From the NCBI RefSeq assembly GCF_018881815.1, contig NZ_JACVPP010000001.1, positions 493,352-557,351 of the forward strand: a stretch of 64,000 nt of DNA, read 5' to 3'. The stretch comes from Polynucleobacter sp. MWH-HuK1. Its GTDB lineage: Bacteria > Pseudomonadota > Gammaproteobacteria > Burkholderiales > Burkholderiaceae. This document shows positions 19,735 through 47,374 of this stretch, in pieces (within the stretch, counting starts at the first letter, position 1; each line of letters begins with the position of its first letter). The translations under genes and the position numbers were made by a program. The notes below the pieces were generated by a model, which was given only the letters and a program-made list of their open reading frames with translations, made no database searches and was not told the DNA's origin.

Positions 19735-21168
19735 TTATTCAAGCTTAGAGGATGAGCGTTTCACAGGCTGGCCATTAATAAAGGCAACTGCTTGAGAAAG
19801 CATGAAATCATCAGCGCTACCAAGTTCTGGTGGCTTCTTATTTTTATCTTTCTCTTTTTCCTCAGGAGTTTTCTTCGCATTTTTTTCTTCAATGCGTTGT
19901 AGCTCTTCGAGACGACGTTGCTCACGATCTTTAATGAGCTTGTCTTCAGCAGATTGTTTATTGCGCAGATGCTTCTCGCTGTCAATTTCGCGAGTGATCA
20001 AAACATCATCTGGATCACCATCTTTATTTTGATCTACCGGAATATCTGGTTTAACGCCAAAAGCCTGAATCGATTTACCGCTAGGGGTGTAGTAGTAAGC
20101 GGTAGTAATTTTGAGCGCTGAATCATTGGTTAGAGGGCGAACAGTTTGTACCGAGCCCTTACCAAAAGTTGTTTTCCCGATGATGGTCGCACGCTTGTAG
20201 TCTTGTAGTGCGCCAGCAACGATTTCTGAAGCAGATGCAGAGTAGGCATTTACTAAAACCACCATAGGCAACTTCTTAAAGATGGCTGGTACACCCGCTA
20301 GTGGATCACCAGGCTCGTTCAAGCGGTACATTGCTGGAGTGGCATTGAATACTTGCTTTGAGTCGGGTGATTGGCCTTTGGTGGAGACAATGATTGCATC
20401 TGCTGGCAAGAACGCAGCAGCCACACCAACGGCGCCCTGTAATAAACCGCCGCCATTGTTACGAAGGTCAAGAATGATGCCTTTAAGTTTTGGGTCTTGG
20501 TTGGCGATATCAGTTAATTTTCTAGCAAGATCGGGAACTGTGCGCTCCTGAAAGCTAGTAATACGAACCCAAGCAATGTCGTTGTCGAGAATTTTAGTTT
20601 TGACTGATTGAACTTTAATTTCTGCACGAGTAATTGTTACTGGAAAGCTACGCTCTTCACTCTTGCGGAATACTGTCAAAGTAATTTTGGTTCCCGGTGT
20701 GCCACGCATTGTGCGGACAGCTTTGTCAAGGGACATGCCGCGTACTGGCTTGTCGTCTAGACGTGTAATTAAATCTCCTGCCTGTAGACCTGCACGAGCT
20801 GCTGGGCTATCTTCAATTGGATTTAACACCTTCACCACGCCATCCTCAGATGTAATTTCAATACCGAGACCAGCAAATTTTCCAGATGTTTGTTCCTGCA
20901 TTTCTGAAAAGTCTTTTTTGTCTAAGAAGGTGGAATGCGGATCAAGGCTACTCACCATTCCTTTGACAGCATCTGTCAATAATTGCTTGTCTTCAATCGG
21001 CTCTACATACTCACGTTTAATCTGTGCAAATACATTGGACAGCGTGCGTAGTTCATCCAGCGGGAGCTGGGCGCCTTGCTGGGCGGTCGCGGAGAGCTGG
21101 ATCGTAGCTGCAACTCCAGCAATAAGACCAACTGCGATCAGTGCAAAATTCTTTAGAAATTGGCGCAT
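19735..21168 (-). CDS. ctpA: S41 family C-terminal processing peptidase
   Basis: A 477-residue periplasmic serine protease. A signal or anchor helix at residues 9-25 is followed by a PDZ domain (GLGIEITSEDGVVKV) and the S41 core with the catalytic serine in NAYSASASEIVAGAL and the lysine in GKTTFGKGSVQ. The C-terminal tail is highly charged and lysine/glutamate rich. Such proteases trim or degrade envelope proteins. It lies between gpmA and moeB, with 12 bases from the gpmA stop. Confidence 0.95.
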   Translation of the reverse strand: MRQFLKNFALIAVGLIAGVAATIQLSATAQQGAQLPLDELRTLSNVFAQIKREYVEPIEDKQLLTDAVKGMVSSLDPHSTFLDKKDFSEMQEQTSGKFAGLGIEITSEDGVVKVLNPIEDSPAARAGLQAGDLITRLDDKPVRGMSLDKAVRTMRGTPGTKITLTVFRKSEERSFPVTITRAEIKVQSVKTKILDNDIAWVRITSFQERTVPDLARKLTDIANQDPKLKGIILDLRNNGGGLLQGAVGVAAAFLPADAIIVSTKGQSPDSKQVFNATPAMYRLNEPGDPLAGVPAIFKKLPMVVLVNAYSASASEIVAGALQDYKRATIIGKTTFGKGSVQTVRPLTNDSALKITTAYYYTPSGKSIQAFGVKPDIPVDQNKDGDPDDVLITREIDSEKHLRNKQSAEDKLIKDREQRRLEELQRIEEKNAKKTPEEKEKDKNKKPPELGSADDFMLSQAVAFINGQPVKRSSSKLE

Positions 21169-44124: not shown

Positions 44125-45003
44125 TCAATCTGAAGAAATCAAATTGTAAGCGGGATTTTTATTTAGCCCCCGAACAACCCGACCTACCCACCCTTTAGGA
44201 AGATTTTGAAGCAGATTTTCTAGTTTTGCGGTGTCAGTCTTAGGGTCTAAGACTGCAAAAACGCTACTTCCAGATCCAGACATACGGGGCTGAGAGCCCG
44301 GTACCGCCTGGTTAATCCAATCCAAAGCTTGCTTCACTTCTGGGCAAATCCGCATCGCTACAGCCTGACAATCATTTGATTGAAACAACAATGGCGATGC
44401 AAGAAAGCCATCAATTGTAATCTGAGCGTGATCTCGGGTCAATTCTGGGTCCTGAAAAATACTAGCGGTAGCAATTCCCTGGTTGGGGAAGATGACCAAA
44501 AAAAGAGGGGTTTCAAGGGAAATTTCCTGAATTTTCTCCCCAATACCTTCAACAAAGGCATTTTTGCCAAAAATAAAGAATGGGACATCAGCCCCTAGCT
44601 TTAAACCCAAATTACAAAGAGTTTCATTGGGTAGATTGAGATTCCAGAGCGCGTTGAGACCAATCAATGTGCTTGCTGCATCAGAGGATCCGCCACCCAT
44701 TCCTGCGCCCATCGGAATTTCTTTTTGTAGATCAATTTCAACCCCAGCCTCAAGCTTGCAAAAATCTTTCAACAAGTTTGCAGCGCGTACTACTAAATCT
44801 TGTTCAGGTGTAACTCCGGGGATGGGGTTTACTCGGCGCACTTCCTTTTCAGGAATGCGTTTTAAGTGGAGCGTGTCACACCAGTCAATAAGTTGAAAGA
44901 CAGATTGAAGTAGGTGATAGCCATCATCTCTGCGTCCAACAATGTGCAAAAAAAGATTGAGCTTAGCTGGCGAGCGAAGGGATAAAGAATCTAGGCTCAC
45001 CAT
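44125..45003 (-). CDS. ispE: 4-diphosphocytidyl-2-C-methyl-D-erythritol kinase
   Basis: A 292-residue GHMP kinase of the non-mevalonate isoprenoid pathway. Motifs: SPAKLNLFLHIVGRRDDGYH, the ATP loop PMGAGMGGGSSDAAST and the C-terminal MSGSGSSVFAV. It follows the TPR-LolB gene by 11 bases on the same strand, matching the lolB-ispE-prs order of proteobacteria. Confidence 0.96.
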   Translation of the reverse strand: MVSLDSLSLRSPAKLNLFLHIVGRRDDGYHLLQSVFQLIDWCDTLHLKRIPEKEVRRVNPIPGVTPEQDLVVRAANLLKDFCKLEAGVEIDLQKEIPMGAGMGGGSSDAASTLIGLNALWNLNLPNETLCNLGLKLGADVPFFIFGKNAFVEGIGEKIQEISLETPLFLVIFPNQGIATASIFQDPELTRDHAQITIDGFLASPLLFQSNDCQAVAMRICPEVKQALDWINQAVPGSQPRMSGSGSSVFAVLDPKTDTAKLENLLQNLPKGWVGRVVRGLNKNPAYNLISSD

Positions 45004-45014
45004 ATTCTTCTTAC

Positions 45015-46502
45015 TTAATCATTCGGTCTGTCAAATACAAGGCGAATATCAATGGAACCAATATTCGAGCTGCGTGTCATAGTGAGCTTCTCTAGGCGAC
45101 CGCTATTGCTCCACGTATAAAGTAGATCCCAGCCATCTTGACTAATTTTGTTTACCTGGCCCTTGGCATTTCTATCAACGCTTGCTTCACTACCAGCGCG
45201 AACTTCACCTCTTAACCAGTTAGATAGACCCCTTGCTGGCAGAGGGAGTCCTAAGGTGTTTTGTACTAGGGTGTCAGCGTCTACCGCTGCCACTACCTTG
45301 CCATCGCTCTCCAGAGTAGCTTCACCTGGTGTGATGGTAATTTTTGCAATTGACCCACCCATAGGATTGCGGATCTCTAGAACATCTTTTAACGAATCTT
45401 GCGTTAAGGTAAATCCGCCTGAGCCACCTTGGTTTTGTGTTTCAGTTAAGCCAATAACTTTGACTGCGAAACGACCATCCCAAGAACCTTTGGCTGTTTG
45501 ATCATCTCTAGTCCAGTCAGGTTTAAAGCGCTTGAGTGTTTCCTTGAGTGTTGGGTTGTTAGCATCCAATTTTTGACCTTGTCGCCAGATCTCTTCTGCT
45601 TCGCTCTGACGATTCATAACCCACAAAACCTCTCCAACATGGGCAGCGATATCTGCTTCTGGTTTCATAGCAAATGCTTGTTGCAGTTGCTCTAAGGCAA
45701 GAGCGTTTTTTCCTAAGCGAAAATTCACCCAACCCAAGCTATCCAAAATGAAACTGTCTTTTGGTGATAGTTGGTGTGCCTTGCTAATTAATGTTAACGC
45801 TTCTGGTAGTTGTACGTTGCGATCAGCCAGGGAGTAGCCGAGAGCATTTAAAGAATTCACATCATTTGGGTATTTGCGCAAAATATCGCGCAAGGTTTTT
45901 TCCATGACATCGATGCGACCGACTTTTTCCGCAGACATCGCATAGGTGTAGAGCAAGCCAGGATCTTTGGAAGCAATTTTGACTGTTGACGCGATTTCAT
46001 AAAACGCACGTAGTGCATCTGATTCATCTTTTGCTTTAGCAAGCAGTGCTTGTAATTGCAAAAGAGTGTTTTCTTGTTTCGCCGGAGTTTGTTGTCGTAG
46101 TAAGGCAATGGCTGGCTTAACTGCATCAGACCAACGATTGCTCAAAATCAGAAGAGTCACTAAGACTTCTTTCGGCTTTGAATCTGAGGCTGGAGATAGT
46201 TCATCCCAAGTCTTGGCGGCTTGCATAGCTAGGTCTGGCGAGCCACCCGCAATCGCTATTTCCATCGCTCTTTGGGCTAGCCTAGGATCTTTGTATTGGC
46301 GTGCCATCTCTAGGTAGGTGTTGTAGGCCAAGCCAGCCTCACCACGCTGGAGAGCGATTTCAGAGGCAAGCACCTCAAAGATGGCTTCACCAGTTTGTAA
46401 TCCATTTGCCCGTGGCTGCGCTTGGGCGTGTGAAATGACTACACCAGCTACGGTCGCCAGGAATAAAGCCTGTATTAGAGGTTTCAGTGCGAATTTACTC
46501 AT
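45015..46502 (-). CDS. lolB: Exported TPR protein fused to a LolB domain
   Basis: About 495 residues from ATG 46502 (the track uses GTG 46508). Residues 1-30 are a signal peptide ending in SHAQA; there is no lipobox cysteine. Residues about 40-330 are helical repeats with clear TPR units such as NSLNALGYSLADRNVQLPEA. Residues about 343-493 form a LolB domain: WDGRFAVKV, GGFTLTQ, LEIRNPMGG, LGLPLPARGLSNWLRG, GWDLLYTW and IDIRLVFD. LolB is normally a separate outer-membrane lipoprotein that receives lipoproteins from LolA. Position before ispE supports the LolB identity. TAGAAT ends exactly 6 bases before ATG 46502. Confidence 0.87.
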   Translation of the reverse strand: MSKFALKPLIQALFLATVAGVVISHAQAQPRANGLQTGEAIFEVLASEIALQRGEAGLAYNTYLEMARQYKDPRLAQRAMEIAIAGGSPDLAMQAAKTWDELSPASDSKPKEVLVTLLILSNRWSDAVKPAIALLRQQTPAKQENTLLQLQALLAKAKDESDALRAFYEIASTVKIASKDPGLLYTYAMSAEKVGRIDVMEKTLRDILRKYPNDVNSLNALGYSLADRNVQLPEALTLISKAHQLSPKDSFILDSLGWVNFRLGKNALALEQLQQAFAMKPEADIAAHVGEVLWVMNRQSEAEEIWRQGQKLDANNPTLKETLKRFKPDWTRDDQTAKGSWDGRFAVKVIGLTETQNQGGSGGFTLTQDSLKDVLEIRNPMGGSIAKITITPGEATLESDGKVVAAVDADTLVQNTLGLPLPARGLSNWLRGEVRAGSEASVDRNAKGQVNKISQDGWDLLYTWSNSGRLEKLTMTRSSNIGSIDIRLVFDRPND

Positions 46503-46537: not shown

Positions 46538-47374
46538 ATGCCAGAACTTCCAGAAGTAGAGGTCACACGATTAGGAATTGCGCCCCACCTTGAGGGACGC
46601 AAAGTTACCGCCGTCAAAATCATTGATGGGCGCTTGCGTTGGCCCGTCCCCGCCAGTCTGAGTAAATCCTTGCCTGGACAAAAGGTAAGCACCATAAAGC
46701 GTCGCGGCAAGTATCTCCTGTTGGAAATGGATACGGGTTATTTACTCATTCATTTGGGGATGACGGGAACCTTGCGAGTGTTGCCAAGTTCAGATTCTTT
46801 GAAGACCCATGATCGAGTAACGCTGGAATTTGGTAAGTTAAGCTTGCGTTTGCATGACCCTAGAAAATTTGGCGCTGTTTTATGGCACCCCAAATCTAAG
46901 GGCCCTATTGAAAAATTTACGCTTTTGCAAAAGCTTGGGGTGGAGCCATTCTCTCCAGAGTTTTCGGGAGAATTGGGCGCGGAGATTTTGTATCAATGTT
47001 CGCGCAAGCGTAGTGTTGCAGTTAAACAATTTCTTTTGGCAGGCGAAGCAGTTGTCGGTGTCGGTAATATTTATTGTTCCGAAAGCTTATTTGAGGCGGG
47101 TATTCATCCGGCTAAAGCGGCTGGTAAATTAACTCGACCACAATGTTCGCGTCTTGCAAAGGCTGTCAGATTGATACTGAAAAAAGCGATTGATGCTGGC
47201 GGTAGCTCACTAAAAGATTTTGTGAATAGCGATGGCGACCCAGGACATTTCATGGTTCAAACCAAGGTCTATGATCGCAAGGGCTTGCCATGCAAGGTAT
47301 GCAAAACACCCATTAACCAGATAGTGCAGGGTCAGCGCTCCACCTACTTTTGTCCGCAATGTCAAAAGCGCTGA
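46538..47374 (+). CDS. mutM: Formamidopyrimidine-DNA glycosylase
   Basis: A 278-residue DNA repair glycosylase/AP lyase that removes 8-oxoguanine. The N-terminal catalytic PELPEVEVTR, the helix-two-turn-helix region and the C-terminal zinc finger CKVC-X16-CPQCQ are all present. It is divergent from the TPR-LolB gene (35 bp gap) and overlaps mutY by 16 bases, so both enzymes of the GO repair system are made together. TACAAT ends 6 bases before the ATG. Confidence 0.96.
   Translation: MPELPEVEVTRLGIAPHLEGRKVTAVKIIDGRLRWPVPASLSKSLPGQKVSTIKRRGKYLLLEMDTGYLLIHLGMTGTLRVLPSSDSLKTHDRVTLEFGKLSLRLHDPRKFGAVLWHPKSKGPIEKFTLLQKLGVEPFSPEFSGELGAEILYQCSRKRSVAVKQFLLAGEAVVGVGNIYCSESLFEAGIHPAKAAGKLTRPQCSRLAKAVRLILKKAIDAGGSSLKDFVNSDGDPGHFMVQTKVYDRKGLPCKVCKTPINQIVQGQRSTYFCPQCQKR

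Follow-up and report, generated by a model that had tools for sequence, protein, structure and literature searches.

Polynucleobacter sp. MWH-HuK1 encodes a single polypeptide in which LbcA, the adaptor of the periplasmic protease CtpA, is joined to LolB, and this polypeptide is probably a soluble periplasmic protein serving both as the LolB of the cell and as its CtpA adaptor. The lbcA-lolB fusion gene is confirmed as real and natural, and it occurs genus-wide. No earlier description of an LbcA-LolB fusion was found in the open literature searched.

A single gene for LbcA and LolB

The fusion gene is a single open frame on the minus strand of the window (the whole stretch of 64,000 nucleotides that was analysed), running from an ATG at position 46502 to a stop at position 45015 and encoding 495 amino acids. 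From N to C terminus, the protein comprises a cleavable signal peptide, a TPR superhelix and a complete LolB domain. The features of the gene, its neighbours and the predicted partner gene in the window are as follows:

45015..46502, minus strand: LbcA-LolB fusion gene, 495 codons plus stop, based on sequence, Pfam, and PDB sequence and fold matches
46419..46502, minus strand: signal peptide, residues 1-28, cleavage between AQA and QP, no Cys, no lipobox
45525..46391, minus strand: LbcA part, residues 38-326, adaptor and shortened TPR superhelix, PA4667 match with E 5e-44, fold 7rqf
46347..46391, minus strand: equivalent of the H1 helix, residues 38-52, the CtpA-binding and -activating helix in LbcA, from the phmmer alignment to 8sxe and helical in the model
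45483..45524, minus strand: short linker, residues 327-340, where the split gene has a stop, the LolB signal peptide and the lipobox
45030..45479, minus strand: LolB domain, residues 342-491, PF03550 with E 3e-23, folds 1iwm/3wjv/8orn
45357..45368, minus strand: NPMG protruding loop, residues 379-382, equivalent of E. coli NPLG/Leu68
44125..45003, minus strand: ispE (ipk), conserved downstream neighbour, from its translation
46538..47374, plus strand: mutM, conserved divergent neighbour, from its translation
19735..21168, minus strand: CtpA protease (S41), predicted partner of the LbcA part, TIGR00225 with 321 bits

The uninterrupted frame, the signal peptide without a lipobox and the full LolB domain described in the initial annotation were all borne out. 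The N terminus, MSKFALKPLIQALFLATVAGVVISHAQA followed by QP, resembles the signal peptidase I type, and the 495-residue protein contains no cysteine at all, which makes a lipobox impossible. The Pfam LolB model PF03550 matches residues 342-491 with 82.9 bits (E 3e-23; cut-off 23.7), and the score against the NCBIfam equivalog TIGR00548 falls short of its cut-off (40.9 versus 59.6 bits). Pfam TPR models match at about residues 181-313, in agreement with the TPR-like repeats of the initial annotation; its generic label of a TPR protein gives way to a specific one, as this half is LbcA.

An AlphaFold2 model of the full-length fusion, built from an alignment of 50 genus members, has a mean pLDDT of 84 and consists of helices at residues 38-326 followed by a beta-barrel at 338-490. 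The LolB domain folded without an alignment reached a pLDDT of 46, and the fold readings are taken from the full-length model. A PDB fold search with this model returned LbcA 7rqf as the top match (E 6e-12) and also recovered the structural match of the C-terminal domain to LolB on which the initial annotation had made its reading depend, namely to E. coli LolB 1iwm (E 5e-8, TM 0.70 to target), 3wjv (TM 0.75 to target) and 8orn. The linker between the two halves spans about 10-15 residues and keeps its length in most genus members; its sequence is variable among them, and confidence in the model is locally lower there (pLDDT 65 at residues 331-340).

Distribution and origin of the fusion

A LolB domain was identified in 117 of 121 Polynucleobacter genomes, including all 96 good ones, nearly always within a frame of about 490-500 codons, and the fused state was found at each of the 80 loci that were translated. 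These 80 fused loci come from many assemblies, which rules out a sequencing error, a frameshift or chance as the source of the fusion. The survey of fused and split forms suggested in the initial annotation detected no fusion among 59 loci from 19 further genera of the family: lbcA and lolB either lie in different frames, which overlap or directly adjoin each other, or have a stop between them. The separate TPR protein and lolB genes before ispE described in the initial annotation for related Burkholderiaceae were thus confirmed, and two of the loci showed no LbcA upstream. Outside Polynucleobacter, no match spanning both domains was found among 399 genomes at the order level and 370 at the class level, which are drawn rather than exhaustive samples in which a very diverged fusion could escape detection, and the longest non-genus frames (20 and 11) proved to be split when re-read. 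The LolB domains of the fusions group together in a single clade (support 100/100) on a long stem, for which one origin followed by rapid change is the simplest reading.

In P. aeruginosa, lbcA shares an operon with lolB and ipk (= ispE) (PMC6050968). This order matches that of the window, where ispE starts 11 bases downstream of the fusion, with the difference that lbcA and lolB are joined in one gene here.

One Burkholderiales family (f18; loci L159-L164) has the split arrangement, with a short lbcA followed by a PF03550-negative lipoprotein gene in the lolB position. The loss of lolB initially considered for this family was dropped, as its place is occupied by this unrecognised lipoprotein gene, which probably encodes a very divergent LolB. 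Six Burkholderiaceae genomes, mostly reduced ones but also one of 2.0 Mb, yielded no LolB match.

The LbcA half and its predicted protease partner

The TPR half of the fusion is LbcA, a named family represented by P. aeruginosa PA4667, which is its closest solved relative by sequence (phmmer, E 5e-44). As a TPR adaptor, LbcA both recruits and activates CtpA, a periplasmic protease whose substrates are peptidoglycan hydrolases. No second LbcA-like protein was found in the host genome, which has a size of 2.17 Mb and is 100% complete by estimate.

The LbcA helix inserting into the CtpA dimer contributes Leu53, Tyr54, Leu56, Leu57, Val58, Leu61 and Ala62, which are complemented by Val87 (PMC11021448), and the CtpA-contact positions map to residues 41-50 and 75 of the fusion. 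Among 80 genus members, these eight residues correspond mostly to V/I, F, V/I, L, A, I, A and L, the equivalent of L57 is invariant, and at eight of ten contact positions the residues are still hydrophobic or small. G46 is partly kept. The hydrogen-bonding residue F48 is unconserved, which counts against our preferred reading. The same applies to the size of the superhelix, as region 38-326 of the model contains 17 helices compared to 29 in LbcA and falls short of 11 TPRs. A short TPR form is also present in another Burkholderiales family, and the shortening is therefore not tied to the fusion.

A CtpA orthologue is encoded in the same window, about 24 kb away from the fusion. It is nearest to P. 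aeruginosa CtpA 7rpq (E 3e-108) and is the one full CtpA-type protease of the host genome. Its helix facing LbcA reads LPLDELRTL, compared to LPLDELRTF in P. aeruginosa, and the LbcA-binding helix is thus conserved. Within the genus, CtpA scores over the cut-off in 59 of 61 genomes and has a match in all 51 good ones.

The fusion therefore shares with P. aeruginosa LbcA (PA4667; 7rqf, 8sxe) its sequence, fold, H1 helix, location upstream of lolB-ispE and the presence of a CtpA orthologue, but differs in the lack of a lipid anchor, the absence of about 240 residues of the TPR middle found in the split form, and the LolB domain at its C terminus. The NlpI-Prc system of E. coli likewise combines a TPR adaptor with a C-terminal processing protease controlling cell-wall hydrolases; however, NlpI is a lipoprotein with a sequence unlike that of LbcA and has no link to LolB.

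The LolB domain and the loss of its lipid anchor

The fusion is the only PF03550 match in the complete host genome. A separate canonical lolB, which the initial annotation had named beforehand as the observation that would speak against its reading, was therefore not found. The domain shares family (PF03550), fold, hydrophobic loop, status as the sole genomic LolB and location beside ispE with LolB of E. coli (1iwm) and Xanthomonas (8orn). In contrast to canonical LolB, it is not a lipoprotein, is located behind a TPR protein, scores below the cut-off of the NCBIfam equivalog and is strongly diverged, with a stem branch of 2.3 changes per column; both the score and the divergence count against our preferred reading. 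The tip of the LolB loop is Leu68 in E. coli, where polar replacements are harmful (PMC11885536). The NPMG segment of the fusion, pointed out in the initial annotation, is no warning sign and indicates no defect, as the main variants among the 80 genus members read NP(M/V/I)G and the tip remains hydrophobic. The conservation of the contact helix, the CtpA helix and the LolB loop suggests that both halves are under selection for their known roles.

A canonical lipobox (e.g. LAGC, LTGC) is present in all 19 LolB proteins of split relatives that were read by eye. Split LbcA proteins of Burkholderiaceae (loci L137-L156) possess a type I signal peptide (e.g. AHAQ) and no lipobox, and LbcA of P. aeruginosa is lipidated at Cys17 (PMC8764530). 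Within Polynucleobacter, a strict lipobox is missing in 79 of 80 members, and the sole exception has the pattern in the middle of its signal peptide. Since LolB is lipidated and LbcA is not in the split relatives, the fusion kept the signal peptide of LbcA and deleted the lipobox of LolB. Judged from these sequences, the joining removed the stop of LbcA together with the signal peptide and lipobox of LolB, and the LbcA export signal was retained.

LolB also functions without lipidation in E. coli, and in F. johnsoniae the non-lipidated form complements fully (PMC11885536), so the anchor is not strictly needed. These soluble variants (E. coli mLolB and F. johnsoniae LolB1 C17G) resemble the fused LolB in dispensing with the lipid anchor, but are laboratory constructs, whereas the unanchored LolB of Polynucleobacter is natural and genus-wide. 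The bifunctional LolA of Caulobacter also provides lipoprotein insertion without a lipid-anchored LolB; there, however, LolA does both jobs, whereas Polynucleobacter keeps a distinct LolB domain.

The host genome further encodes one LolA and one LolC/E-type gene (contig C1, 1969008-1970255), which is consistent with a LolF-type (homodimer) transporter. It also encodes a MepS-like NlpC/P60 lipoprotein, which both halves of the fusion could plausibly have as a client.

Proposed function and alternative explanations

In our preferred reading, the LbcA signal peptide would export the fusion, which would be released as a soluble periplasmic protein. The C-terminal LolB domain, although not part of a lipoprotein, would receive lipoproteins handed over by LolA and place them in the outer membrane, as suggested by homology and by the absence of any other LolB. 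The N-terminal part would use the conserved H1 helix to bind and activate CtpA and would offer it cell-wall hydrolases for degradation, and one polypeptide would then carry both lipoprotein insertion and CtpA-controlled hydrolase turnover. We infer that the two activities may be functionally coupled. In a specific form of such coupling, which is tentative and somewhat unlikely, the LolB domain would insert lipoprotein hydrolases delivered by LolA and the LbcA domain would triage them to the protease, and one soluble polypeptide would physically link outer membrane lipoprotein insertion to CtpA-driven hydrolase destruction.

Alternatively, the fusion might be a neutral by-product of genome streamlining, with a deletion joining two neighbours whose products continue to work separately and without coupling. 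This is a serious possibility, if not the favoured one, as Polynucleobacter has small genomes (mostly 1.2-2.9 Mb), lbcA and lolB already abut or overlap in relatives and the linker, besides being short, varies in sequence. However, the fusion is fixed in all members examined at near-constant length, no re-splitting was seen, and the strict lipobox pattern occurs in only one of 80 members and mid signal peptide.

The initial annotation proposed a substitute for the lipid anchor, with the TPR part docking to an outer membrane partner. Such docking to an outer membrane or cell-wall partner, by which LolB would be held at the outer membrane, is unlikely and received no positive support: no outer membrane partner was identified, the known partner of LbcA, CtpA, is a soluble periplasmic protein, and the membrane tether of P. 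aeruginosa LbcA is its lipid, which the fusion lacks. As LbcA of split Burkholderiaceae is already without a lipobox, the TPR half also brings no anchor of its own. In favour of docking, the anchorless mLolB of E. coli sends lipoproteins to the wrong place, the inner membrane (PMC10368991), an observation that counts against our preferred reading and leads to the expectation of some targeting. Furthermore, LbcA of P. aeruginosa is found in complexes with CtpA and with cell-wall hydrolases, and several of these hydrolases are outer membrane lipoproteins (PMC6050968).

Cleavage of the precursor in the periplasm into separate LbcA and soluble LolB is improbable. The lower model confidence and variable sequence of the linker would be compatible with processing, but no cleavage motif was recognised and the short linker is conserved in length in most members. 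Least probable is a LolB domain repurposed as a lipid or lipoprotein sensor of the protease adaptor, with LolA alone inserting lipoproteins as in Caulobacter, which would fit the long stem branch of the fused LolB and the bifunctional LolA known from LolB-less species (PMC11784454), but not the hydrophobic loop tip and the many LolB residues conserved genus-wide.

Implications for lipoprotein targeting

LolB is presented as an outer membrane lipoprotein whose anchor guarantees delivery to the correct membrane. The Lol pathway contains a paradox, as its delivery of lipoproteins itself requires a lipoprotein (PMC11784454). Polynucleobacter, a freshwater genus whose only recognisable LolB is non-lipidated, thus offers a natural system for testing the purpose of the anchor. 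The identity of the TPR half as LbcA shifts the question from anchoring to the link between lipoprotein insertion and cell-wall proteolysis, and, in view of the fusion, the conserved neighbourhood of lbcA and lolB may point to a functional connection of lipoprotein insertion with the control of cell-wall hydrolases. If the proposed coupling is true, LolB would no longer be dependent on the pathway it serves, and Rosetta-stone logic would predict an interaction of LbcA and LolB in species that encode them as separate genes.
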